53,510 nucleotides of DNA from Candidatus Kaelpia aquatica (lineage in GTDB: Bacteria; Omnitrophota; Gorgyraeia; Kaelpiales; Kaelpiaceae). Both the position numbers and the translations under genes were made by a program. The notes under the pieces were generated by a model. The model did no database searches, had not been told where the DNA came from, and saw nothing but the letters and a program-made list of their open reading frames with translations. Location of the stretch: contig JAVCCU010000022.1 of the NCBI GenBank assembly GCA_030765335.1, forward strand, positions 1 through 53,510. Direction: 5' to 3'. Below are positions 1 through 38,901 of the stretch, piece by piece. How positions within the stretch are numbered: the stretch's first letter is position 1; each line of letters begins with the position of its first letter.

Positions 1-1
1 A

Positions 2-1324
2 TCTTTTAAGAGAAAATTTTTATTAGGATATTTCTGGGGCATTATAGTCTTTAGTTTTTTATCTTATTGGGTTACTCATGTAGCCTTCCTTGGGTTCTTA
101 TCGGCAATCCTTTATCTCTCTTTATACTCTGGGTTATTCACGGTTCTAATTAGTGGAAATAGAAAATTTACCAATCCTTTTTATATAGCGAGTCTATGGG
201 TATCTCTTGAATTTTTGCGTTCTTTTCTCTTTACAGGTTTTTCTTGGGGTTTTTTGGGCTATGCTTTTTGGAGCCGCTTAAATTTTATTCAAATTGCAGA
301 TCTATTCGGTATCTATGGTGTATCATTTGCAGTTGTTTTGATTAACGCAGCTTTGTTCTGTTTTTTTATCGAGCATAATAGAAGGCGTAAAGTGGTTAAC
401 CTTGCAGTAATCCTATTGATTATAGTCTGTTCGTTTTGTTATAGCAGGTATCGTTTGAATTCTCTGCTGTCTGAAGATAGTGTTAACAACGTTGCTCTGG
501 TTCAGACAAATGTGGATTCCAATTTAAAGTGGGATCTAGAACTATATAGAGATAATTTAGAAAGAGTTAGACTACTTGGGCTAATTGCAAAAGAGAGAGG
601 CGCAGAGCTTATAATATTTCCCGAGACAGTATTGCCCTATAGCTGGAATAGAGATAAGAGAGTCATGGATGATATGGAAGGTATCATCGAAGAGCTCAAC
701 AGAGATATTATTTTAGGGATTCCTTATTGTCAGGACGGCAAGCTTTATAACGCGTCTCTTTTATTTAATAAAAACGGAGAGGTCAAAAGCAGTTATTTTA
801 AGAATCATTTAGTGCCTTTTGGTGAGTATCTTCCATGTGATAAATTATTATCTTTTTTAAAGGAGTTTTATCCTGTCGGATATTATTCACCCGGTGTAGA
901 CTCAAATCTTCTTAAGTACCAGAACAACTATTTTTCTGTTTTAATATGCTACGAAGATATTTTTCCTAACATCGCAAGAAAAGCTACTTTAAGCGGTGCC
1001 TCTTTTTTAGTTAATCAGTCTGATGAGGGTTGGTTTAAGAATAGCCAAGAGGTATATCTGAATAATCAGATTGCGGTTTTCCGTGCAATCGAGAATAGGC
1101 GCTCATTGGTGCGTTCAACAAATACAGGCATAACTTGCTTAATAGATTACAAGGGGCGAATATTAAGTCAATTAGATCCGTTTAGGGCAGATGTTTTAGT
1201 AGTCGATGTTCCAATCTATAAAGAGCTATCCATTTATTCTAAATATGGATTGGTATCACTTATTGCCATTGCTTCTATTTTTGTTTTATTATATTCCGTT
1301 TGGAATAATAAAAAAAGGTTGTAA
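2..1324 (+). CDS. lnt: Apolipoprotein N-acyltransferase, 5' end cut by window edge
   Basis: Transfers the third acyl chain from phospholipid to the N-terminal cysteine of outer-membrane lipoproteins in the inner membrane. The frame is open from base 2 (the first internal ATG is only at 215), so the true start lies left of the window; about 440 residues are visible against roughly 500 for the family. The N-terminal part is a string of hydrophobic segments. The nitrilase-like domain carries the three catalytic residues: Glu in FPETVLPYSW (codon 623), Lys in KNHLVPFGEYLP (codon 800) and Cys in LICYED (codon 947). A final membrane helix precedes the stop. A 6-bp palindrome overlaps the stop codon but has no T-run. 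Together with the lol genes downstream it shows a diderm cell with mature lipoprotein sorting. Confidence 0.95.
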   Translation, partial: SFKRKFLLGYFWGIIVFSFLSYWVTHVAFLGFLSAILYLSLYSGLFTVLISGNRKFTNPFYIASLWVSLEFLRSFLFTGFSWGFLGYAFWSRLNFIQIADLFGIYGVSFAVVLINAALFCFFIEHNRRRKVVNLAVILLIIVCSFCYSRYRLNSLLSEDSVNNVALVQTNVDSNLKWDLELYRDNLERVRLLGLIAKERGAELIIFPETVLPYSWNRDKRVMDDMEGIIEELNRDIILGIPYCQDGKLYNASLLFNKNGEVKSSYFKNHLVPFGEYLPCDKLLSFLKEFYPVGYYSPGVDSNLLKYQNNYFSVLICYEDIFPNIARKATLSGASFLVNQSDEGWFKNSQEVYLNNQIAVFRAIENRRSLVRSTNTGITCLIDYKGRILSQLDPFRADVLVVDVPIYKELSIYSKYGLVSLIAIASIFVLLYSVWNNKKRL

Positions 1325-1485
1325 ACTTACAATAATTAAGGTTCTTCTAAACTAGAAATAGTTCGAGTTCTCGCTGGGGATGTTAACTAAATTATCTCTT
1401 AATTATATGAGTGAAGAATTAGTTTTAAAGTATTTCTTATCTCTAAAAAGATAGGCTTGATTGATCTAGTAAGAATTGATTAACA

Positions 1486-1971
1486 CTATCCGTTGAATAA
1501 TGTTTTAGCCTCTTGAAGTATGCGTTCTGCCTCATCAGAATTAATCGTGGTATCGTCCATAGTTATGCCTAATTTTGCTTTTGAAAGATTCATTCCAGTG
1601 AGGTATCCTGTTATGCTCGTTATTCCAAGCATATGTAATTCGTATTTTGCTGTAATTTTGGCAGCAACTATAATTGCGCGTGCCATATCTGTATCCATAT
1701 TTCGGTTTTCAGCTAATTGTTCAGATACTGGACTAAGATCTAAAGTGCCTTCAAAGTAGTCTTTAAGCATAAATTTTTCGTCTCCTGTTAAAGGGGATTC
1801 AGCCCTGCTAAGAATGTCTCCACAGAAAATTATCCCCCATGCTACTTGCCTTTCGGTGAACTTAGAATCCGTTTTAATTCTTCGGGCAAAACAGGTATTG
1901 GATAAGAATAAAATGGAACAAAAGATAGATACTATAATCAGGCTAATTTTTTTACTCGTATGTATTTTCAT
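1486..1971 (-). CDS. Exported protein of unknown function
   Basis: 161 residues, family not recognised. The N-terminus is a clear Sec signal peptide: lysines at 3, 7 and 8, hydrophobic core about 10-24, then SNTCFA with a probable cut after residue 29. The mature part is mainly helical in character, with an acidic C-terminus, and has one cysteine. A good promoter and an A/G-rich ribosome-binding region (AAAAGGGG) precede the ATG. It lies alone on the minus strand behind lnt, and a 38-bp repeat lies just upstream of its promoter. No domain motif supports a function. Confidence 0.7.
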   Translation of the reverse strand: MKIHTSKKISLIIVSIFCSILFLSNTCFARRIKTDSKFTERQVAWGIIFCGDILSRAESPLTGDEKFMLKDYFEGTLDLSPVSEQLAENRNMDTDMARAIIVAAKITAKYELHMLGITSITGYLTGMNLSKAKLGITMDDTTINSDEAERILQEAKTLFNG

Positions 1972-1990
1972 TTAATACCCCTTTTCTATA

Positions 1991-2019
1991 TTTATCCCAT
2001 ACAATATCATTGTTGTCAA
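1991..2019 (-). promoter_or_regulatory. Sigma70-type promoter of the 161-residue exported protein
   Basis: On the minus strand a perfect TTGACA (2014-2019) is followed after 17 bases by GATAAA (1991-1996). Transcription would start near 1984, about 13 bases before the ATG at 1971. Confidence 0.6.
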
Positions 2020-2035
2020 ATAATGGGTTAATTAC

Positions 2036-2073
2036 CAAAAAGTTGCGAAACTCGTCCAATGCGGGGAGTTTTT
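2036..2073. repeat. 38-bp direct repeat, copy 1
   Basis: Identical over 38 bases to 3115-3152. It has an A-run at one end and a T-run at the other, around a stem-loop: AACTC then TCC pair with GGG and GAGTT across an AATGC loop, with one bulged G. It sits between the stop of the 304-residue gene and the promoter of the 161-residue gene, so it could also act as a terminator, although the plus-strand T-run does not face the minus-strand genes. Its origin is unknown. Confidence 0.9.
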
Positions 2074-2098
2074 ATATTTAACAATCTGTAGCAGTAAC

Positions 2099-3013
2099 TT
2101 ACAGAGGATTTCTATTTGTCAAAATATGCATACCTAGAGATTTTGGAGTGACCCAATTAGATGCTGGATATGTTAAATTTCGTCTCTCAAGAATATAAGT
2201 TGGGTAGTCTTCTTCTGTTGCTAATTTTTTAAATATTTCAAAGCCGAGATTTCTATACAAACTACCATATAAAGTATCTTCGAAATTTTCACCACGAGCT
2301 AATGCATCCAAAGATTCTTGATTTGCTAATTTAAATTGAATCTTTCCTCCGATCGGTATAAAGCTTGTAATAAACTCAGTCATTGCAGTACCTATTCCTT
2401 GACCTCTCAAATTAGAAGGAGCACTTTGAAAGAATTCTTTTATTGCAGAATCATTTTCAATATTTAAAACCGAAGTGAAATAAGCGTATAGAAATTTTGC
2501 TTGAGCATTAAATTCGTCTTTAGGTCCTATTGTAAAATATGCTACCATTGCGGCGAGTAATGATTTTTCACCCATATGGTCTTTTCGATATGGCGAAATC
2601 GCTTCATATATACCTGAATAATCCAATGTAATTTCCCATCCAATATTCAAAATTCCATCTTCAGTCATATGAATTCCTGTGGTCATTGCAACTGGATATC
2701 GGTTATCAGTATCGTTATTAGAGTTAGGCATTATATGTATCATATGTTTAGATTTCAGATCTTCTGTAGAAAATATTCCTCGTTCTACGAAGTCGTTTTG
2801 TATGACAATTCTATATTCTTTATCTGGATTTTTTGCAGTAGTAAACATGATAACCTGTCCTTGTCTATTTGCAATTTCATCAAAAGGAGATAATTCGGAC
2901 CGATATCGTCTTGTAGGGATATTTCTGTGGAAATTGTTTGTTAGATTAATGCTAAAATGCACTAATAATAATAAAGATACTGTTAATTTCCAATATCTAT
3001 CAAGGAATTTCAT
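2099..3013 (-). CDS. Membrane-anchored protein of unknown function
   Basis: 304 residues from the ATG at 3013. A further in-frame ATG exists at 3040, but the promoter at 3045-3072 would start transcription at about 3038, which favours the inner start; neither has a well placed Shine-Dalgarno. A single N-terminal hydrophobic stretch (residues about 8-21) forms a signal anchor; the rest looks soluble and would face the periplasm. I recognise no domain or catalytic motif. AT-rich like its neighbour. The gene and its promoter are bracketed by the two perfect copies of the 38-bp repeat. Confidence 0.7.
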   Translation of the reverse strand: MKFLDRYWKLTVSLLLLVHFSINLTNNFHRNIPTRRYRSELSPFDEIANRQGQVIMFTTAKNPDKEYRIVIQNDFVERGIFSTEDLKSKHMIHIMPNSNNDTDNRYPVAMTTGIHMTEDGILNIGWEITLDYSGIYEAISPYRKDHMGEKSLLAAMVAYFTIGPKDEFNAQAKFLYAYFTSVLNIENDSAIKEFFQSAPSNLRGQGIGTAMTEFITSFIPIGGKIQFKLANQESLDALARGENFEDTLYGSLYRNLGFEIFKKLATEEDYPTYILERRNLTYPASNWVTPKSLGMHILTNRNPL

Positions 3014-3044
3014 AATAAGTAAACTTTTTTGCCCCCTCATGCTA

Positions 3045-3072
3045 TTTATACCACATGGATGATGTTTGGCAA
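3045..3072 (-). promoter_or_regulatory. Sigma70-type promoter of the 304-residue membrane-anchored protein
   Basis: On the minus strand TTGCCA (3067-3072) is followed after 16 bases by TATAAA (3045-3050), five of six matches in each box. The predicted transcript starts near 3038 and leaves a leader of about 25 bases to the ATG at 3013. Confidence 0.6.
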
Positions 3073-3114
3073 AATTATATCTGTTTTATTGTTATCGTTT
3101 AGTTCTGGGTATAA

Positions 3115-3152
3115 CAAAAAGTTGCGAAACTCGTCCAATGCGGGGAGTTTTT
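3115..3152. repeat. 38-bp direct repeat, copy 2
   Basis: Perfect copy of 2036-2073 in the same orientation, 1,079 bases away. Here the T-run is longer (seven T). A TATAAC box overlaps its first base, so a plus-strand transcript could begin inside the repeat and end at the terminator at 3196-3231. Confidence 0.9.
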
Positions 3153-3195
3153 TTGCAATTCAGTGAAAATACAAACTTTTCGCTGGATTACTTAT

Positions 3196-3231
3196 AAAAC
3201 CCCAGTTGCAGAAATGTAGTTGGGGTTTTTT
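3196..3231 (+). terminator. Strong intrinsic terminator
   Basis: AAAACCCCA pairs with TGGGGTTTT, and the stem continues inward with wobble pairs to a GAAA tetraloop (3211-3214), giving about 15 pairs, followed by T-run 3226-3231. No plus-strand gene lies between lnt and this point, so it may end a small RNA or read-through from lnt. Confidence 0.8.
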
Positions 3232-3331
3232 GTTTATGCAGGAATATGATGTTTTATATATTGTGGCGAAATATTTTTTGATGTAATATGGAGAAATATT
3301 TTGGGGCAAGTCCACTGAGTACTATTATTCT

Positions 3332-3358
3332 TAAAGGGCGGTTTATGATCCGCCTTTA
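3332..3358. other. Hairpin just ahead of the hydrolase start
   Basis: TAAAGG-GCGG pairs with CCGC-CTTTA with one bulged base. It ends 17 bases before the ATG at 3376 and has no T-run, so it is more likely a leader structure than a terminator. Confidence 0.5.
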
Positions 3359-3375
3359 TAAACGATGGAGAGAAC

Positions 3376-4275
3376 ATGGAGCAACGCAGAATCTTTAGGT
3401 TATCACTTTTTATAATGCTTTTGATGGGTGGGCTTGGGCTTTCGCCTGTCCTTGCGCAGGCCGGTCTTCATCAGAACGTTGAGACGGTCAAAATAGCGAC
3501 CTCTGCTGAGGGCACGGCGATCAATTATTACGAGCATGGGCAAGAGGGGCCGGTACTTGTGTTCGTTCACGGATGGAGTTGTGACGCGAGCTACTGGAAA
3601 GAGCAGGTCGAGTATTTCAAAGAGAAGTATCGCATGGTTCTGATCGATCTGGCTGGGCATGGTCGCTCTGGGAGTGAACGTGAGAATTACACCATGGAAG
3701 CTTTTGGTCAGGATGTGAAGGCTGTTGTCGAGAATATAGGGGCAGAGAAGGTGGTCTTGATCGGTCATTCTATGGGTGCCCTTGTGATCGCAGAGGCGGC
3801 CCGCTTGATGCCAGAGAAGGCTATTGGATTGGTCGCGGTTGATGACCTTCAGAATGTGGAGTATCTCCTAGGGGAAGAACAGTTCAAAGAGATGACTACG
3901 CCATTCAAAGAAGATTTCAAGAAGGGTGTCAGAGGTTTCGTTATAGGTATGCTGCGTTCTGACAACTCGCTGGTCAATGAATGGGTGATCTCTGATATGT
4001 CTTTGGCTGATCCCAGGGTTGCGCTCAGTGCCATAACCGGGTCATTAGGCGGGTATCTGACAGGTGATGTGGCCAAGCTGTTTGATGAATTGGATCTTCC
4101 GGTTGTAGCTGTGAATGCCGACCTTTGGCCAACAGATGTCGAAGCGAACAGACGGCATATAAAGGACTTTGAACTAATCGAGTTGGACGGACTGGATCAT
4201 TTTTTGATGCTTAAAGCACCGGAGCGTTTTAACCCTGCGCTTGAGCAGGCTGTTAAAATGATACTGAAGAAATAG
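3376..4275 (+). CDS. Secreted alpha/beta hydrolase
   Basis: 299 residues with a signal peptide (basic start, core about 9-24, cut after PVLAQA). The hydrolase fold is complete: HGW oxyanion region at about 65-67, the nucleophile elbow GHSMG with Ser132, an acidic residue at Asp249 or Asp254 in ADLWPTD, and the catalytic His275 in DGLDHFL. Residues 59-100 match the usual V-F-V-H-G and D-L-A-G-H-G-R-S pattern. Substrate cannot be told: esterase, lipase-like or C-C hydrolase are all possible. GGAGAG ahead of the ATG serves as ribosome-binding site. The DNA is visibly richer in G and C, with different codon choice (many GCG, ACC, GTC, ATC) from its neighbours, suggesting recent transfer. Confidence 0.88.
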   Translation: MEQRRIFRLSLFIMLLMGGLGLSPVLAQAGLHQNVETVKIATSAEGTAINYYEHGQEGPVLVFVHGWSCDASYWKEQVEYFKEKYRMVLIDLAGHGRSGSERENYTMEAFGQDVKAVVENIGAEKVVLIGHSMGALVIAEAARLMPEKAIGLVAVDDLQNVEYLLGEEQFKEMTTPFKEDFKKGVRGFVIGMLRSDNSLVNEWVISDMSLADPRVALSAITGSLGGYLTGDVAKLFDELDLPVVAVNADLWPTDVEANRRHIKDFELIELDGLDHFLMLKAPERFNPALEQAVKMILKK

Positions 4276-4411
4276 AAAAGAGAGTGTTTATGAGGCGAAT
4301 ATGTGCAAAAGTACTAGGTGGACATAATAATAAAGTCAGCGCCCTAATAAGCTTCAAAAAACAATCGTATTTCTCTCGCTTTTTTTATAATTCATCCCCA
4401 CATAAATAATC

Positions 4412-4434
4412 ATCGAAAAGTTCGGATTTTTTTT
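4412..4434 (+). terminator. Weak intrinsic terminator behind the hydrolase
   Basis: A short stem (CGAA with TTCG across AAG) is followed by ATTTTTTTT. The stem is only four to six pairs, so efficiency is doubtful. Confidence 0.35.
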
Positions 4435-4483
4435 GGGGGGGTCTCGGGGAATTTTTATATTTACCCCCTTGCGGTTTAATAAA

Positions 4484-4514
4484 TTGCAAGTGGTTTTCCT
4501 TGTGCTATTATAAT
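4484..4514 (+). promoter_or_regulatory. Probable promoter of the 45-residue microprotein
   Basis: A perfect TATAAT at 4509-4514 with TTGCAA at 4484-4489. The spacer is 19 bases, longer than ideal; using TATTAT at 4506-4511 it is 16. The leader to the ATG is about 20 bases and contains a full AAGGAGG. Confidence 0.5.
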
Positions 4515-4539
4515 ATAACAAATAAAAAAGGAGGTAGTT

Positions 4540-4677
4540 ATGAATTGGAAAATGTTTGGACAAATAGTATTGTTAATGATAATCGGCGTGTTAGTTTTAA
4601 TGTCTATGAAATATGCTATACGGAAGTGTCCGATAATGGGTAAAAATATGGGATGTTATTCTCCTGTCCAAAAGTGA
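4540..4677 (+). CDS. 45-residue single-pass membrane microprotein
   Basis: A short gene with a consensus ribosome-binding site AAGGAGG (4528-4534) five bases before the ATG, and its own promoter. The product starts MNWKMFGQ, has one membrane helix at about residues 8-23, then a basic tail with two cysteines (KCPIMGKNMGCYSP) and many methionines (seven). Function unknown; the Met/Cys content could fit metal binding, which is only a guess. The signals for transcription and translation are better than those of most genes here. Confidence 0.6.
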   Translation: MNWKMFGQIVLLMIIGVLVLMSMKYAIRKCPIMGKNMGCYSPVQK

Positions 4678-4761
4678 ATAAACAGTTTAAATAATGTGCT
4701 TATCCTGTATTTATTACAGTAAACATGATAGGTGATCCATTGTATTGTTTTCTTTAGTATA

Positions 4762-4799
4762 CAACCAATTGCAAAACTCGCTTAACGTAAGGGTCTATG
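4762..4799. repeat. Degenerate copy of the 38-bp repeat
   Basis: Ungapped comparison with 2036-2073 gives 22 identities in 38, concentrated in the left half, where TTGC-(G or A)-AAACTCG is shared. It lies between the microprotein gene and lysS, again at a boundary between units. Confidence 0.4.
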
Positions 4800-4923
4800 T
4801 ATTTATAAGTAGTTTGTGAATAAAGAGTTAGGAGAAATAGTCTCTTTATCTCTGCGATTGTAGAGATTTTAGGTTAAAATTGTGCTATTTAGAGAGTTAT
4901 ATTATTTTTTAGGATAATCCAAG

Positions 4924-4952
4924 TTGACTTATTTTATATAAGAGTTTACAAT
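4924..4952 (+). promoter_or_regulatory. lysS operon promoter, nearly leaderless
   Basis: TTGACT (4924-4929), 17-base spacer, TACAAT (4947-4952). Start of transcription is expected near 4959, within about three bases of the lysS ATG at 4962, and there is no Shine-Dalgarno. Confidence 0.65.
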
Positions 4953-4961
4953 TCAGAAGAT

Positions 4962-6380
4962 ATGAAAGACGAATTAAGAGAACATAAACTTGATAAACTA
5001 AAGAGGTTGGAGGCTAAAGGTATAAATGCCTATCCTAGCCGCTATTTGCCCTATGATTCTATAGCATCCTGCCTGGAAGGTTGGGAGGATGATAAGGAGA
5101 TTAAGATTGCAGGTCGTATTATGGCTCTAAGGGGTCACGGTAAGAGCATATTCTTAGATCTTAAAGATGCAACCTCCAGAATGCAGGTCTATATTAATAA
5201 CGATATTTTGGGCGAAGATAAGTTTACTACTTTTAAAGAGTGTTTTGATATTGGAGATATTATTGGAGTAAGCGGAGAGACTTTTAAAACACGGACAGGT
5301 GAAAGTACTGTCTCGGCAAAAAGCGTTACAATGCTGTCAAAATCACTCTTGTCGCTCCCTGAGAAGTGGCATGGGTTAAAAGATGTAGAGATAAGACATA
5401 GAAAGCGTTATCTGGATTTGATTATGAATGATGAATCTAAAGAGAGGTTTTTGTTGAAGAGCAAGATAATGAATCTCTTACGCAGCTTTCTAAATGAAAA
5501 AGGGTTTATTGAAGTTGAGACTCCCATGCTCCATGCTGTAGCCGGTGGTGCAGCCGGAGCGCCTTTTAAGACTCATCTTGAAGCCTATGATCTAAATCTT
5601 AATCTTCGGATTGCTCCGGAGCTTTATTTGAAGAGACTGCTTGTTGGAGGGTTTGAAAAAGTCTATGAGATAAATAGAAGTTTCAGGAATGAAGGCGTCT
5701 CTACTAAACATAATCCTGAGTTTACCATGATGGAGCTATATTGGGCCTATGCAGATTATAATGATATAATGGCTCTTACTGAGGAGCTCTTCTCTTTTCT
5801 TGCTCGCGAGATAAAAGGGGATGAAGAGTTTGAGTATCAGGGTAAAAAGATTAGCTTTAAAGCCCCATTTAAGAGGTTGAGTTTTTCAGAGATATTAGGA
5901 GAAGAAGACCTCGACATAGATAAGCTTAAGGAGATAATGGAGAAGAAGCTCGATAAGAAATTAGAGAAACTCTCTAGGTCTCAGATTTTAAATCTATGTG
6001 AGGATTATATAGAAGAGCAGCTCGATGATAGCCCTATTTTTGTAGTTGATTATTTAAAAGAGATATCCCCTTTGGCCAAGACAAAAGAGGGCAGCGCTAA
6101 TCTTACCGAAAGATTTGAGCTTTTTGTCGCTGGTATGGAGATTGCTAATGCATACAGCGAGCTCAATAATCCAATTGAACAGATGGAGAGGTTTCAGGCT
6201 CAGAGCGGTGAGAAGAGAGAGCATGTAGATTATGATTTTGTTCAGGCCTTAGAATATGGAATGCCTCCCGCTGGAGGGTTGGGGATAGGTGTAGATAGGC
6301 TTATCATGTTACTTACCGACGCAGCTTCTATCAGAGAAGTTCTGTTCTTTCCGTTGCTAAAACCAGAAAATACTTTATGA
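4962..6380 (+). CDS. lysS: Lysyl-tRNA synthetase, class II
   Basis: Charges tRNA-Lys. The 472 residues are slightly shorter than the common 490-500. An OB-fold anticodon-binding domain occupies about residues 40-140; class II motif 1 follows RHRKRYLDLI, motif 2 is FRNEGVSTKHNPEFTMMELY, and motif 3 is GLGIGVDRLIMLLT near the C-terminus. The first gene of a co-transcribed run: its stop overlaps the next start by four bases (ATGA). Confidence 0.97.
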   Translation: MKDELREHKLDKLKRLEAKGINAYPSRYLPYDSIASCLEGWEDDKEIKIAGRIMALRGHGKSIFLDLKDATSRMQVYINNDILGEDKFTTFKECFDIGDIIGVSGETFKTRTGESTVSAKSVTMLSKSLLSLPEKWHGLKDVEIRHRKRYLDLIMNDESKERFLLKSKIMNLLRSFLNEKGFIEVETPMLHAVAGGAAGAPFKTHLEAYDLNLNLRIAPELYLKRLLVGGFEKVYEINRSFRNEGVSTKHNPEFTMMELYWAYADYNDIMALTEELFSFLAREIKGDEEFEYQGKKISFKAPFKRLSFSEILGEEDLDIDKLKEIMEKKLDKKLEKLSRSQILNLCEDYIEEQLDDSPIFVVDYLKEISPLAKTKEGSANLTERFELFVAGMEIANAYSELNNPIEQMERFQAQSGEKREHVDYDFVQALEYGMPPAGGLGIGVDRLIMLLTDAASIREVLFFPLLKPENTL

Positions 6381-7552
6381 GGTTTGAATTCTGGCTGGCC
6401 AGTAAATATCTTCTGCGAAGAGAGACTAAATTCCTAAAGCTTGTCTCTGTTATAACAGTCCTAGGCGTTGCTATTGGAGTAATGGCGCTGCTGGTTGTTA
6501 TAGCGGTTATGAATGGTTTTGATCAAGAATTAGAAGATAAAATCTTAGGAACAAACTCTGACATCCTAATAAAGTCTCAGAGCTTTATTTCTAAGCCAGA
6601 TGAGATTATAGCCAAAATCCAGGGGTTGGAGAATGTAGTAAGTAGTTCTTCTATTATAGTAGGAAACGGAAGCCTTATTAATGAGGGTTATTTGGAAAAT
6701 ATATATATCAAAGGTATAGACTTAGAGAGTGAAAAGAAGACTACCAGAATAGATAACTATCTTTTAAATAGGTTAGAGAGCATATCAGAAGACGGTATTA
6801 TTTTAGGTAAAATTATTGCTCAAAAGATGGGCTTGGGAATCGGCTCATCCATTAAAGTTCTTCTGCCTTTTAATCTTGATAGCTTTGATTTTAAGGTTGT
6901 TGGGGTATTTGAATCAGGGATGTATGAGTATGATTCTTCCATGGCCTATATAAATATTCAGAAAGCAGAGAGCATCTTCAATCTTTTAGGTGCAACTGCT
7001 ATTGAGGTTAAGATAGAAGATTCTTATAAGGCTGATAAAGTTAAAGCTACTATTAAATCTTGTTTAGGGTCTGATTTTGATGTCTTAAGCTGGATGGATA
7101 TGAATAGGAATCTCTTTAGCGCACTAAAGCTAGAGAAGACGGCAATGTTTATAATACTTTGCCTGATAATACTCGTAGCCTCTTTTAATATTGCCAGCAT
7201 TCTTATTATGTCTGTATTAGAGAAAGTGAAAGATATCGGCATTATGAAGGCGATAGGGATGAAGAATGCAACCATAAGAGGGGTCTTTATGATGCAAGGT
7301 ATGCTAATAGGTCTCTCAGGTATAATTTTGGGTTCTGCCTTAGGGGGCGGAATAATATATCTCCTAGATAATTATCCTATTATAAAGTTGCCTTCAGACA
7401 TTTATTACATTGACCGCTTGCCGGTCTCTACGTCTCTATTAGATTTTGCAATTATTATAATTGCTGCTCTTGCTATAACATTTGTGGCTACGTTATACCC
7501 TGCAATAAAGGCATCTAAGTTTGATCCTGTTGTGGCCTTGAGGTATGAATAA
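6377..7552 (+). CDS. Lipoprotein-releasing ABC transporter permease, LolC/LolE family
   Basis: Inner-membrane permease that extracts mature lipoproteins for transfer to the outer membrane. 391 residues: membrane helix at about 22-48, a periplasmic MacB-like domain, then three helices (about 258-285, 305-330, 355-380) of the FtsX fold. Only one permease gene is present, so it probably works as a homodimer (LolF-like) instead of a LolC-LolE heterodimer; this is an inference. Overlaps lysS by ATGA and lolD by TAATG. Confidence 0.92.
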   Translation: MRFEFWLASKYLLRRETKFLKLVSVITVLGVAIGVMALLVVIAVMNGFDQELEDKILGTNSDILIKSQSFISKPDEIIAKIQGLENVVSSSSIIVGNGSLINEGYLENIYIKGIDLESEKKTTRIDNYLLNRLESISEDGIILGKIIAQKMGLGIGSSIKVLLPFNLDSFDFKVVGVFESGMYEYDSSMAYINIQKAESIFNLLGATAIEVKIEDSYKADKVKATIKSCLGSDFDVLSWMDMNRNLFSALKLEKTAMFIILCLIILVASFNIASILIMSVLEKVKDIGIMKAIGMKNATIRGVFMMQGMLIGLSGIILGSALGGGIIYLLDNYPIIKLPSDIYYIDRLPVSTSLLDFAIIIIAALAITFVATLYPAIKASKFDPVVALRYE

Positions 7553-8232
7553 TGATAACACTTAAAAATGTAAACAAATCTTTTAAGGTTGGGAATAAGA
7601 CAATAGATGTTCTAAAGGATCTCTCTTTTGAAGTGGCGGAGGGTGAAATTTTAGCTATACGAGGCCCCTCTGGTGCTGGTAAATCAACGCTCCTTCATAC
7701 TATAGGAGTCTTGGAGAGACCGGATAAAGGAGAAGTCTATTTAGAGGGAGATGATATTTATAGTTTTGATGAAAATAGAAAGGCTATATTCAGAAATAAC
7801 AATATCGGCTTTGTGTTTCAGTTCTATTATTTAATTCCAGAATTAAGTATTCTTGAGAATGTTGCACTGCCTCTACTTATAAAAAACATTAAGAGACCTG
7901 AAGCATTAAGTAAGGTTCGGGAGATTTTAAAATTTTTGCAGATTGATAATAGAGCAGATCACTATCCCAATCAAGTTTCAGGGGGAGAACAGCAGCGCAC
8001 TGCTATTGCTCGGGCTCTTATAGTAGAGCCTAAGATTCTTCTCTGCGATGAGCCTACTGGAAATTTGGATTCTCAAATGGGCGAAGAAGTGCTAAAATTA
8101 CTTGAATTAGTAAACAGAAATAGAAATACTACTATTATAATTGTAACTCATGATCGCGATGTAGCTTCATGGACCAAGAGAGAGCTTTATATAAAAGACG
8201 GTTTTATAGAAAAAGATAATCAGATTAAGTAG
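7552..8232 (+). CDS. lolD: Lipoprotein-releasing ABC transporter ATPase LolD
   Basis: Drives the neighbouring permease. 226 residues with Walker A GPSGAGKS (38-45), Q-loop FVFQ (87-90), signature VSGGEQ (142-147), Walker [10 protein letters not shown] (162-170) and the switch His in VTHDRD. Start codon overlaps the permease stop by one base, indicating coupled translation. Confidence 0.93.
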
Positions 8233-13194: not shown

Positions 13195-14865
13195 ATGTAT
13201 ATATCGTATTTAAAAAAAAGATATAAGATATTTCTTATTTTTCTGGCAGTCTTTTCAATACTTTTTTCTTTAAGCTTTGCTCTTTCCAATACAGTTCTTA
13301 ATATGGTAATAAAGAATCTAATGACAGGGTCGTCTATTCCGTCAGATGTTAAGATTCATGCAAGACAATTTATTTTTTCTCTTGAAGACGGGGTTGTATT
13401 AAAGAATCTGTCTATATCTAGAGGAGATAAAAATTTTGTAATCCCTAGATTTGCAATCAAGAAAAATAACGGTTTTATTTCAATTAAAATAAAAGGGGTG
13501 TTATTAGATCTAAATTTACTTAAAAGTTTAATAGCTATCCCTATCGGCAGCAGTGCTTCTAACGGTGTCTCTTTAAAAGTTAGGTTAGATGATATCGATT
13601 TTTTATCTCAAGGTAAGACTATAAATATAGATCATGGTTCTATATCATCCGGTAAGAATGGTGTTCATTGGGATTTAAGATTTACTTATCAGGGGTTAAA
13701 TTTAAATGCTAGAGGCTATGCTTCGCTTGAAAGAGAACTCTGTTTTTTTAATTTTACTTCTGAATTTATGAAAACAGTTTTAGTGGGTGAGTATGATTTA
13801 AAAAGAAAAATTCTAAGAGGAGGAGTATTTTTTAGAGGAGATTTCTATCGTTTAGGAGCTAAAGCTTTAAGCGAGCATGGAGTTCTCTCCCTGATAGATG
13901 TCTCTTTAGGCCCTCTCTCTATCCCTGGACCTATAGAGTTAAATCTTAATAAGGGTTTGAGTTTTAATTGGGCTATTCAAGGCGGTTCTTTAGACGCATC
14001 TGGCTTTCTTGATTTTAAGAGCGAAGAGGATAGACTTCGCTTCTATGTTAAGGTTTTAAAGGCCCAGTTTGGAGAGTATGAGTTAATAACAAACTCCTAT
14101 ATAGACTATCTTATAGATGAGAATTCCTTGGTCTTTGACTCTGTAGGTACTGTTTTAAACAAGATGCCTTTTTCAGAGATCTCTTTTAAAGCAGCACTGA
14201 CAGATAGAGGGGTAGTCCTTGAGAGGTTTGGCTATGAAGGCGGAATAAGTCTTAGTGGTTACTGCGATTATAATTTAAATCATAGTATTCAGGGGGAGTT
14301 TAATGATTTCAATTTGCATGAGATGATGACTGTGGTTATGCCGCTCTATGCCCGCTATCTAAGCGTTCCCAAGATAAATGGAGAATTTAATTATTTTTTC
14401 TATGATGATACAAGATTTACAGATGTTGCATTAGAGCTTGGAGAGGGCAGGATTATAGATGTTGTATTTGAGAGCGGCAGGGTTCATCTGATGGGGAATT
14501 CAAATATACTAGAGTTTGTCAATTCAGAGCTGGTCATTGACGGTATGCGCCTAGCTTTTGAAGGCAATGTTGACATAGCTGAATTTCCAACTACTGCTAT
14601 GTGGGAAGATGTTTTTTTAGTTCCTATTTCAACCTCTTATCCTTTTGGGGATATATCTTTTGAGGATAGGTTTGGAGATAGAAAGATGTCTTTAGGTGCA
14701 AAGCTAAAAGAGAATGTGAGATTGGATTATAATGTGGAATTTTCAGCAGATGAAAACTACAATAAGAATGAAGTATCGTTGGAGATTATAGGTATACCTA
14801 ATTTAAAATTGCGCTTGAAGGATAACGAAGAGATAATGGGAGTAGAGAAAAACATTAAGTTTTAA
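13195..14865 (+). CDS. AsmA-like membrane-anchored beta-rich protein next to mla genes
   Basis: 556 residues, one N-terminal membrane helix (about 10-32), the rest apparently periplasmic with alternating short beta-type stretches, as in AsmA/TamB/YdbH-like bridge proteins; the pattern KINGEFNYFFYD near residue 400 is typical of that group, but no firm family signature is visible. The gene ends five bases before mlaE, so it is probably part of the same lipid-transport operon. A role as a lipid bridge or partner of the MCE transporter is an inference. No clear ribosome-binding site. Confidence 0.6.
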   Translation: MYISYLKKRYKIFLIFLAVFSILFSLSFALSNTVLNMVIKNLMTGSSIPSDVKIHARQFIFSLEDGVVLKNLSISRGDKNFVIPRFAIKKNNGFISIKIKGVLLDLNLLKSLIAIPIGSSASNGVSLKVRLDDIDFLSQGKTINIDHGSISSGKNGVHWDLRFTYQGLNLNARGYASLERELCFFNFTSEFMKTVLVGEYDLKRKILRGGVFFRGDFYRLGAKALSEHGVLSLIDVSLGPLSIPGPIELNLNKGLSFNWAIQGGSLDASGFLDFKSEEDRLRFYVKVLKAQFGEYELITNSYIDYLIDENSLVFDSVGTVLNKMPFSEISFKAALTDRGVVLERFGYEGGISLSGYCDYNLNHSIQGEFNDFNLHEMMTVVMPLYARYLSVPKINGEFNYFFYDDTRFTDVALELGEGRIIDVVFESGRVHLMGNSNILEFVNSELVIDGMRLAFEGNVDIAEFPTTAMWEDVFLVPISTSYPFGDISFEDRFGDRKMSLGAKLKENVRLDYNVEFSADENYNKNEVSLEIIGIPNLKLRLKDNEEIMGVEKNIKF

Positions 14866-37513: not shown

Positions 37514-38901
37514 GGACTCATTATTGCGGAGAGCTTCGAAAAGAAGATAAAGACAAAAAGGTTGTTTTGGCCGGGTGGGTTTATAGAATAAGAGAACACG
37601 GTAAAGTTACTTTCCTTGATTTACGTGATCGGGAGGGTCTTATCCAGATTGTATGTGTTCCCAGTATTTTAAAAGATAGCGCGAATGTTGTTAAAGAGTT
37701 GACTAAAGAGGATGTTGTCTATATTGAGGGTACTGTTAATGAGAGGCCCCAAGGTACGATAAATAAAAATATTCCAACTGGAGAAGTTGAGTTGTTGGCG
37801 TCAGATGTTAGGCTGCTCAATAAATGCAAAGATCTTCCTTTTGACATAGAATCGGAGACAGAAGTATCTGAGGATCTGCGCCTTAAGTATAGGTATTTAG
37901 ACTTAAGAAGAGAGGAGTTAAAGAAAAACTTTATCTTCAAAGACAAGGTTACCAAATATACCAGGGACTTTTTTCATCAGGAAGGATTTTTAGATATAGA
38001 AACGCCAATACTTACAAAGTCTACGCCTGAAGGGGCTAGAGATTTTCTGGTTCCTGCTCGCTTGCGTTCGGGGAGCTTCTATGCATTACCTCAATCTCCT
38101 CAGCTTTTTAAGCAGATTTTAATGATTGCAGGCCTTGATAAGTATTATCAGATAGCAAGATGTTTTAGAGATGAAGACTTAAGGGCTGATAGGCAGCCTG
38201 AGTTTACACAGCTGGATTTAGAGATGAGCTTTATTGATGAAGAGGATATCTTTAATCTTATAGAGGGGTTGTTAAGTTACATTTTTAAGAAAGTGTTAAA
38301 TTATGAACTAAAGACCCCCTTCCTGCGCCTATCTCATAGAGAAGCTATGGAAAAGCATAATTCAGACAAGCCGGATTTAAGAACAGAAGGAGATGATTTT
38401 TGCTTCCTCTGGTTAAAAGATTTTCCATTATTCAATTTTAGTGTCGAAGAAGATAGCTGGGATATGGAGCACCATCCTTTTACTGCGCCTCATCCAGAAG
38501 ACATAGATCTTATAGGTAAAGATATGGGCAAAGTTAGGGCCAGGTCGTATGACCTAGTTCTCAATGGTGTTGAGTTAGGCAGCGGCAGCATTAGAATACA
38601 TCAGAGAGAATTACAGGAGAAGATTTTCAAAGCCATAGGCATAGACGATGAAGATGCAGAGCGTAAGTTTGGTTTTCTATTAAAAGCCTTGGATTCCGGG
38701 GCACCACCTCATGGAGGTTTTGCTTTAGGGCTAGATAGAATGCTTGCTTTAATGTTAGGGGAGAATAGCATCAGAGATGTAATAGCTTTTCCTAAGACTC
38801 AGCGTGGTATCTGCCTTTTAACCGATGCCCCTTCGCATGTTGATGTTGACCAGTTGCTGGAATTAAAAATAAGAACATTGAAGGAGGAGAGAGATGACTA
38901 G
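37507..38901 (+). CDS. aspS: Aspartyl-tRNA synthetase lacking the GAD insertion
   Basis: 464 residues, start TTG with GGAGG six bases ahead. N-terminal OB-fold (about 18-105), motif 2 FRDEDLRADRQPEFTQ, and motif 3 GFALGLDRMLALML show a bacterial-type AspRS. Bacterial enzymes are about 590 residues, with a GAD domain of roughly 120-145 residues after the SDKPDLR motif. Here SDKPDLR (about 286-292) runs almost straight into FCFLWLKDFPLFNF (about 298-311): the insertion is missing without a frameshift. Whether it charges only tRNA-Asp, or also tRNA-Asn, cannot be seen. Confidence 0.95.
   Translation: MLRTHYCGELRKEDKDKKVVLAGWVYRIREHGKVTFLDLRDREGLIQIVCVPSILKDSANVVKELTKEDVVYIEGTVNERPQGTINKNIPTGEVELLASDVRLLNKCKDLPFDIESETEVSEDLRLKYRYLDLRREELKKNFIFKDKVTKYTRDFFHQEGFLDIETPILTKSTPEGARDFLVPARLRSGSFYALPQSPQLFKQILMIAGLDKYYQIARCFRDEDLRADRQPEFTQLDLEMSFIDEEDIFNLIEGLLSYIFKKVLNYELKTPFLRLSHREAMEKHNSDKPDLRTEGDDFCFLWLKDFPLFNFSVEEDSWDMEHHPFTAPHPEDIDLIGKDMGKVRARSYDLVLNGVELGSGSIRIHQRELQEKIFKAIGIDDEDAERKFGFLLKALDSGAPPHGGFALGLDRMLALMLGENSIRDVIAFPKTQRGICLLTDAPSHVDVDQLLELKIRTLKEERDD

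Follow-up and report, generated by a model that had tools for sequence, protein, structure and literature searches.

What is the short repeat that recurs between the genes lying from lnt to lysS in Candidatus Kaelpia aquatica, and what are the stretches that it bounds? We addressed this question in contig JAVCCU010000022.1, the analysed stretch of which (53,510 nucleotides) is called the window here, and in the genome to which it belongs (G000; 1,339,195 bases in 46 contigs; G-numbers denote genomes, L loci and C contigs). The lnt-lysS block is, with good confidence, an array of small gene cassettes, each closed by the same recombination joint of the large serine recombinase (LSR) type. In our best reading, which relies on sequence comparison, the repeat would be a recombination joint whose antisense strand codes for an LSR C-terminus, and this joint would be half of the attachment site of CcrB-like LSRs whose islands enter tRNA genes, mostly tRNA-Asn, precisely at the 3' CCA. 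The block would accordingly be best described as a cassette array that resembles an integron but lacks an integrase, and that belongs to an LSR system closest to the staphylococcal cassette chromosome (SCC) and its CcrB; the mobility of its cassettes is inferred.

The repeat and its copies in the genome

The conserved part of the repeat, referred to below as the core, reads CTCCCCNNNTTGGACGAGTTTCGCAACTGG on the minus strand. The original prediction had recognized two perfect 38-bp copies, which we recovered in extended form at 2033-2073 and 3112-3152 (41 bp, one mismatch), and had proposed either a mobile or shuffled cassette array or an intergenic element with a stem-loop. A tolerant search of the whole of G000 with the 38-mer returned only these two copies at up to three mismatches, with none of the reversed pattern at the same tolerance; a looser pattern was passed by six copies in all, and diverged copies were located on contigs C5, C3, C40, C32 and C33 by BLAST with flanks and by profile searches. 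These diverged copies, together with those in other genomes, exclude a single local duplication as the source of the pair. The copy described as degenerate (4762-4799) is a degenerate core (about 17/28 by eye) followed by sequence that matches the DNA after tRNA-Asn in G000, and the weak copy suspected at 1345-1383 corresponds to a half-site resembling a tRNA 3' end at 1361-1380, exactly at the homology break with a same-genus genome. A joint that had escaped the original prediction lies at 4451 (...TCTCGGGGAA|TTTTTATATTTA) and bears the same left-end sequence as the joint at 2068. The proposed stem-loop is not supported, the hairpin of the 38-mer being weak (z -0.5 to -1.3) and the real hairpin lying just beyond it.

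Spread, placement and cargo of the core

By DNA pattern, the core is present in 29 of 197 genomes of the class, with no reversed pattern among the matches listed, and a profile of the encoded peptide, applied at E ≤ 0.05, matches 107 of the 384 genomes sampled from the phylum. When 84,980 species genomes were scanned with TTGGACGAGTTTCGCAACTKK, 25 stretches emerged, of which 17 are titled Omnitrophota or Omnitrophica, four belong to genera that we take to be Omnitrophota (Saelkia twice, Gygaella and Velamenicoccus), and the remaining four include Zixiibacteriota, Coriobacteriales and WOR-1. The Coriobacteriales match (L100) lies inside a 213-aa open reading frame (ORF) and was set aside, as it looks like chance. 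In the Zixiibacteriota record (L096), two cores are separated by 1536 bp and their units have about 228 bp in common at 81%, possibly through cross-phylum transfer or misbinning. Viral contigs contained neither a core match nor a relative of the encoded peptide, and a Pfam search with this peptide gave sub-threshold matches only.

The core stands directly after the stop codon of a gene and ahead of a terminator-like hairpin, and a perfect stem by a simple rule was found beside 36 of 88 copies. Because loci overlap and copies were made unique by sequence, our counts refer to distinct sequences, not to independent events. When naive ORFs of at least 80 aa were considered and copies within ORFs left out, both neighbours ran in the cassette direction, opposite to the peptide, at 50 of 65 copies (other arrangements: 5, 5 and 5). 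Successive copies on one strand delimited 36 intervals of 365-2468 bp (median 1071 bp); counting ORFs of at least 75 aa, 25 of these held one ORF and seven held two, and the largest ORF followed the cassette direction in 31 of 35. At least six copies stand in a row on one contig of G344, and since metagenome-assembled genomes break at core sites, such array lengths are lower bounds. Of 20 cargo proteins submitted to Pfam, 16 had a match at E ≤ 0.001, and the families found were nitronate monooxygenase, CopG antitoxin (below its cut-off), NERD, DUF2971, metallophosphatase, Thi4, PNPOx, Fe-S protein, DNA alkylation repair, trehalose synthase, Zn ribbon, acyl-transferase, methyltransferase, cupin, zeta toxin and GIY-YIG. 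The idea of a cassette array is borne out by this placement between genes in many genomes, by the mostly single-gene intervals and by their common orientation.

Two explanations can be weighed against these counts. An intergenic repeat, terminator or miniature inverted-repeat transposable element inserting at random would account for the many copies and the nearby hairpin, but is contradicted by the orientation bias and the fixed position after stop codons, by the absence of any Rfam match in window 1-8000 at E ≤ 1, and by the coding frame and the LSR and tRNA links described below; we regard it as highly improbable. Just as improbable is an ordinary integron remnant, that is, an attC array of the CALIN type (cluster of attC sites lacking integron-integrases). 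Its anatomy of single genes in one orientation with a site after each gene is indeed matched by the tandem single-gene cassettes seen here, but the attC core GTTRRRY occurs at the cassette joint in 1 of 68 sites, the level of control windows (mean 1.0), the class 1 integron integrase model PRK15417 finds nothing over its cut-off in G000 (the arrays of other genomes were not searched), and the site encodes LSR sequence.

Comparison with a same-genus genome

The same-genus relative G001 carries other genes at the lnt-lysS site, and the difference begins at a joint. DNA of G001 and the window is homologous from lnt to window position 1380, at ...GTTCGAGTTCTCGCTGGGGA, where G001 continues directly with TTTTTATATTTAAGCCTCTG..., a sequence that the window has behind the core, from 2069 on; in G001 the counterpart of window 2063-2111 comes immediately after the lnt-proximal half-site. 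As G001 joins this half-site straight to post-core sequence, positions 1381-2068 are present in the window and absent from G001, with both ends at the joint. The two halves of the G001 joint thus stand, in the window, at the exact ends of a 688-bp unit with one gene, a difference that we would read as an insertion. In G001, where lnt and lysS are on separate contigs, lnt is followed by genes for 301 aa and 466 aa with a core between them, and lysS is preceded, on another contig, by a gene for 358 aa between two cores. In more distant relatives lnt and lysS are spaced by about 180 bp (G016) and about 600 bp (G007).

The same comparison points to tRNA-Asn. The G001 half-site agrees with the 3' end of tRNA-Asn in G000 at 17 of 21 bases (0 of 20,000 shuffles), and the 200 bp after this tRNA (contig C43) are 86% identical to the DNA after the last joint before lysS in G001. 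In the window, positions 4797-4851 match the DNA following tRNA-Asn in G000 at 80%, and shorter stretches of that DNA match after 4791 and after 1380. Since the DNA after tRNA-Asn matches the DNA after joints, one left-end sequence abuts both a real tRNA end and cassette joints. The tRNA-Gln of G000 ends TGGCTACCCC, and cores on contigs C5, C24 and C32 start with CTACCC. Position 1 of contig C10 (L322) is the exact CCA end of tRNA-Gln, to which the CTACCC prefix of those three cores corresponds; this end is probably another attachment site of G000 that was lost in assembly.

The joint as putative LSR coding sequence

On the minus strand, the core and about 17 more codons form an open frame. 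The decisive test of this frame was confined to sites found by DNA, since the profile was built from protein and its sites are biased towards the coding frame. Codons 11-22, counted from the start of the core, are open in 53 of 65 such sites in the frame reading LPxLDEFRNW, compared with 24 and 16 in the other two frames and with a mean of 25.5 and a maximum of 36 in 200 trials with shuffled tails. In 16 of the 65, codon 28 is the first stop. Synonymous richness in antisense frame 1 was about that of the sense frame, and this statistic was not used. No ordinary gene lies upstream of the core frame, where stops and, in many copies, the hairpin are found.

The frame finds its counterpart in LSR genes. 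A profile match in G250 (L204) comes with a 203-residue open frame that reads ...YRKPFSFIAEGLICSNW|LPVLDDFRNWLLAEAPHTFLAEMRMT*, and with L204 as the query we retrieved LSRs of about 490-550 aa in the phylum, matches of any kind at E ≤ 1e-6, fragments included, being present in 37 of 384 genomes. All three full-length LSRs examined contain the Resolvase and Recombinase domains, and full-length LSRs linked to the site occur in relatives only. An LSR C-terminus continues in frame into the core in four genomes, namely at L204 (G250), L273/L264 (G243), L275 (G405) and L276 (G322), and an independent distance test, limited to cores that score with the profile, detected two LSR-core junctions at distance 0 and in frame. 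Among named relatives, CcrB is the best match of the LSR (88.8 bits, E = 3e-25), followed by XisF and CcrA, all of them far below cut-off (900 bits for CcrB), which leaves the LSR outside the Ccr family; the sole solved relative by sequence is a resolvase-family chain (3guv). Judging from these translations, the core with its tail is the C-terminus of an LSR in antisense. Earlier ideas, namely the 3' end of a tRNA-independent gene as target, a group IIC intron, a helitron-like end and a promoter, were dropped once the LSR C-termini had been found. In a separate arrangement, a second LSR C-terminal match lies inverted at about 1.5-1.8 kb from the first (G155:C2 and C4, G261:C29, G431:C83, G325:C31, G300:C1 and G344:C33), and most of these pairs combine one full-length LSR with one short fragment, as in insertion sequences (IS).

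Islands at tRNA 3' ends

A KPF...W motif is present in 18 of the 33 LSR ORFs listed, and 11 of these 18 have a tRNA at their 3' end as called by ARAGORN (Asn 5, His 2, Gln, Asp and Ser 1 each, and one without an assigned type). In every one of the 11 the W codon starts on the final base of the tRNA gene, its TGG being complementary to CCA. Six more of the 18 contain the tRNA-like string TGGCTCCCC...CGAACC with no ARAGORN call, and this string is absent from the remaining one (G052 L255). The coincidence of W codon and tRNA end means that the last recombinase residues are read from the target. The other end of such an island is predicted to carry the sequence completing the gene in the circular form. 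A same-strand core was found upstream in four of five islands mapped over at least 5 kb, namely G111 (LSR at 27.4 kb, cores at 37.9 and 39.3 kb), G327 (core at 5584, LSR at 13266-14864, tRNA-Gln at 14766-14840), G415 (a weak match, LPMAHEFTNW) and G405; in the G193 island no far-end core was seen before the contig end. The start of the core follows the tRNA, being CTCCC in islands of the Asn type and in G405, to whose tRNA ARAGORN assigned no type, and TTGCCC in the Gln island G327, where tRNA-Gln likewise has TTGCCC. The far-end core of G405 is preceded in frame by another LSR C-terminus, an order that we read as tandem accretion. Four tRNA islands (L288 in G327, L324 in G111, L326 in G193 and L275 in G405) have in common a pair of genes for an HTH-like protein of about 163-184 aa and a protein of about 350-364 aa, and restriction-modification-like genes stand beside their LSR.

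Such islands allow for an explanation with no movement of small cassettes, in which large LSR islands entered a single hotspot one after another, each leaving a core as a scar at its far end, and later deletions left one gene between scars. Islands of about 9-12 kb with an LSR, restriction-modification-like genes and a far-end core do exist, G405 offers the accretion, and scattered LSR C-terminal fragments are many. We nevertheless consider the scar explanation unlikely, since a PNPOx-like gene lies beside a core in G154, G344 and G189, Thi4 recurs in L107, L102, L170 and L282 (the core flank was checked for part of these copies), orientation and single-gene intervals are too regular for it, and the unit by which G000 and G001 differ is exactly one gene.

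Several observations weigh against the LSR cassette array as a whole. No intact full-length LSR was found fused to a core, as one of the four fusions is broken by IS21-like genes and the other three are fragments or run off their contigs; the in-frame pattern search that found them looked solely in frame, and the distance test also returned an LSR-core neighbour 46 nt apart and out of frame (G052 L287). No LSR with PF07508 is present in G000. The half-site of G000 reaches just 15/21 against tRNA-Asn, a score matched once elsewhere in the window, and two minus-strand genes of the window run opposite to the usual cassette direction. G001 may also have lost the 688 bp by excision, in place of an insertion having occurred in the window. 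Finally, several mapped islands encode a Xer-like tyrosine recombinase or a look-alike judged by eye (L288 alone was tested, with XerA/XerC matches), which makes the Xer-like protein a second candidate enzyme. That this protein, and not the LSR, moves the cores would suit the gene for about 350-364 aa held by mapped islands, and tRNA 3' ends are classic targets of tyrosine integrases. We find this improbable, however, as the G415 island showed no such gene, the joint falls together with the reading frame of the LSR, fused LSR-core junctions exist, and tRNA and core are identical over a short stretch at the joint (about 9 bp).

Parts of the window

Read as an LSR cassette array, the block begins with the lnt-proximal half-site (1361-1380, plus strand), its outer end. 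Cassette 1 (1381-2068, gene, tail and core) is the 688-bp unit missing from G001, and its minus-strand gene (1486-1971, 161 aa) has no Pfam match at E ≤ 10. A homologue of this gene (54% identity) is found at L022 on contig C40 (4750-5265, minus strand), next to a degenerate core and in similar flanking DNA. Core joint 1 (2039-2068, minus strand) reads LPALDEFRNF..., its antisense frame being open to about 1952. It is followed on the plus strand by the cassette left end TTTTTATATTTAA... (2069-2118), which has an imperfect hairpin and recurs after joints in G000 and G001. Cassette 2 (2069-3147, 1079 bp) has one minus-strand gene (2099-3040, 313 aa; no Pfam family above its cut-off) and ends with core joint 2 (3118-3147, minus strand), the same as joint 1 over 30 bp, with the frame LPALDEFRNFLLYPELNDNNKTDIILPNIIHVV* open to about 3046. 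In cassette 3 (3148-4451), an alpha/beta hydrolase gene (3376-4275, 299 aa; PF12697, E = 1.3e-19) runs in the common cassette orientation, and a degenerate joint (4441-4451, plus strand, GTCTCGGGGAA) precedes the shared left-end sequence. The very short cassette 4 (4452-4791) contains a putative 45-aa ORF (4540-4677) of uncertain status, read from the sequence alone, and the degenerate core at 4762-4791 (minus strand) is the last joint before lysS, the matching DNA after it (4797-4851) being found both downstream of tRNA-Asn in G000 and before lysS in G001. Farther along the window, positions 37543-38796 encode a second LysS-like protein with 31% identity to the lysS product (4962-6380).

Discussion

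A mechanism consistent with these observations would start from a circular element or cassette with one attachment site, across which an LSR of this family, if present, would read through W|LPxLDEFRNW to a stop. Recombination at TGG|CTCCCC, presumably catalysed by the LSR, would take place with a tRNA end, with another core, or beside a resident LSR gene at its own 3' end. In the product, any LSR would be completed by the target, and the core at the other end would become available as a further target. Cassettes that are small and lack an LSR may use the same sites, with an enzyme that acts in trans or was once present. The recombinase gene beside which a cassette lands would then have its C-terminus exchanged each time, so that tails would have to stay translatable, which would explain a coding frame in tails that are not expressed. 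Extended to the whole phylum, this leads to a bolder proposal of a second, independent kind of integron, in which genes are captured by a serine recombinase inserting at its own gene 3' end or a tRNA mimic of it, every cassette re-encodes the C-terminus, and selection for a working integrase keeps the tails in frame; we put this forward tentatively, as plausible but somewhat more likely wrong than right.

Integrons, which rely on a tyrosine recombinase, are the main known example of gene capture in rows of cassettes. An LSR-based analogue, if true, would mean that the cassette-row design arose twice; it would also explain the turnover of accessory genes in the phylum Omnitrophota, few members of which have been cultured, and supply recombinases whose sites are short, tRNA-like and portable. 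A joint that encodes part of its own enzyme would pose an evolutionary puzzle, as the target sequence rewrites the C-terminus of the enzyme. We found no description of such a system in the open-licence literature, to which our reading was confined, subscription papers being outside its scope.

The nearest known systems share part of this design. In the SCC and ECC cassette chromosomes, the 3' region of rlmH is where the serine recombinases CcrAB act, and the direct repeats are about 50 bp long (PMC6222049). SCC, SCCmec and ECC (CcrAB, CcrC) resemble the present system as LSR-driven cassettes with direct-repeat attachment sites at a gene 3' end (rlmH; PMC6222049), and CcrB is the best named match of the Omnitrophota LSR. 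Unlike SCC, the units of the array are mostly single genes of about 1 kb in rows and without a recombinase, the primary target is a tRNA 3' end, the joint encodes the C-terminus of the recombinase itself, and the CcrB cut-off is missed; the LSR sites found are tRNA 3' ends and cores, rlmH itself not having been searched for. With tRNA-targeting integrative islands the system has in common insertion at tRNA 3' ends, tandem accretion and restriction-modification-like cargo, whereas here the target supplies the end of the LSR gene and the site also serves small cassettes. With integrons and CALINs it shares single-gene cassettes lined up in one orientation, each gene being followed by a recombination site, and arrays lacking an integrase; unlike them, it would work with a serine instead of a tyrosine recombinase and, in place of attC motifs, with a site that is itself coding.

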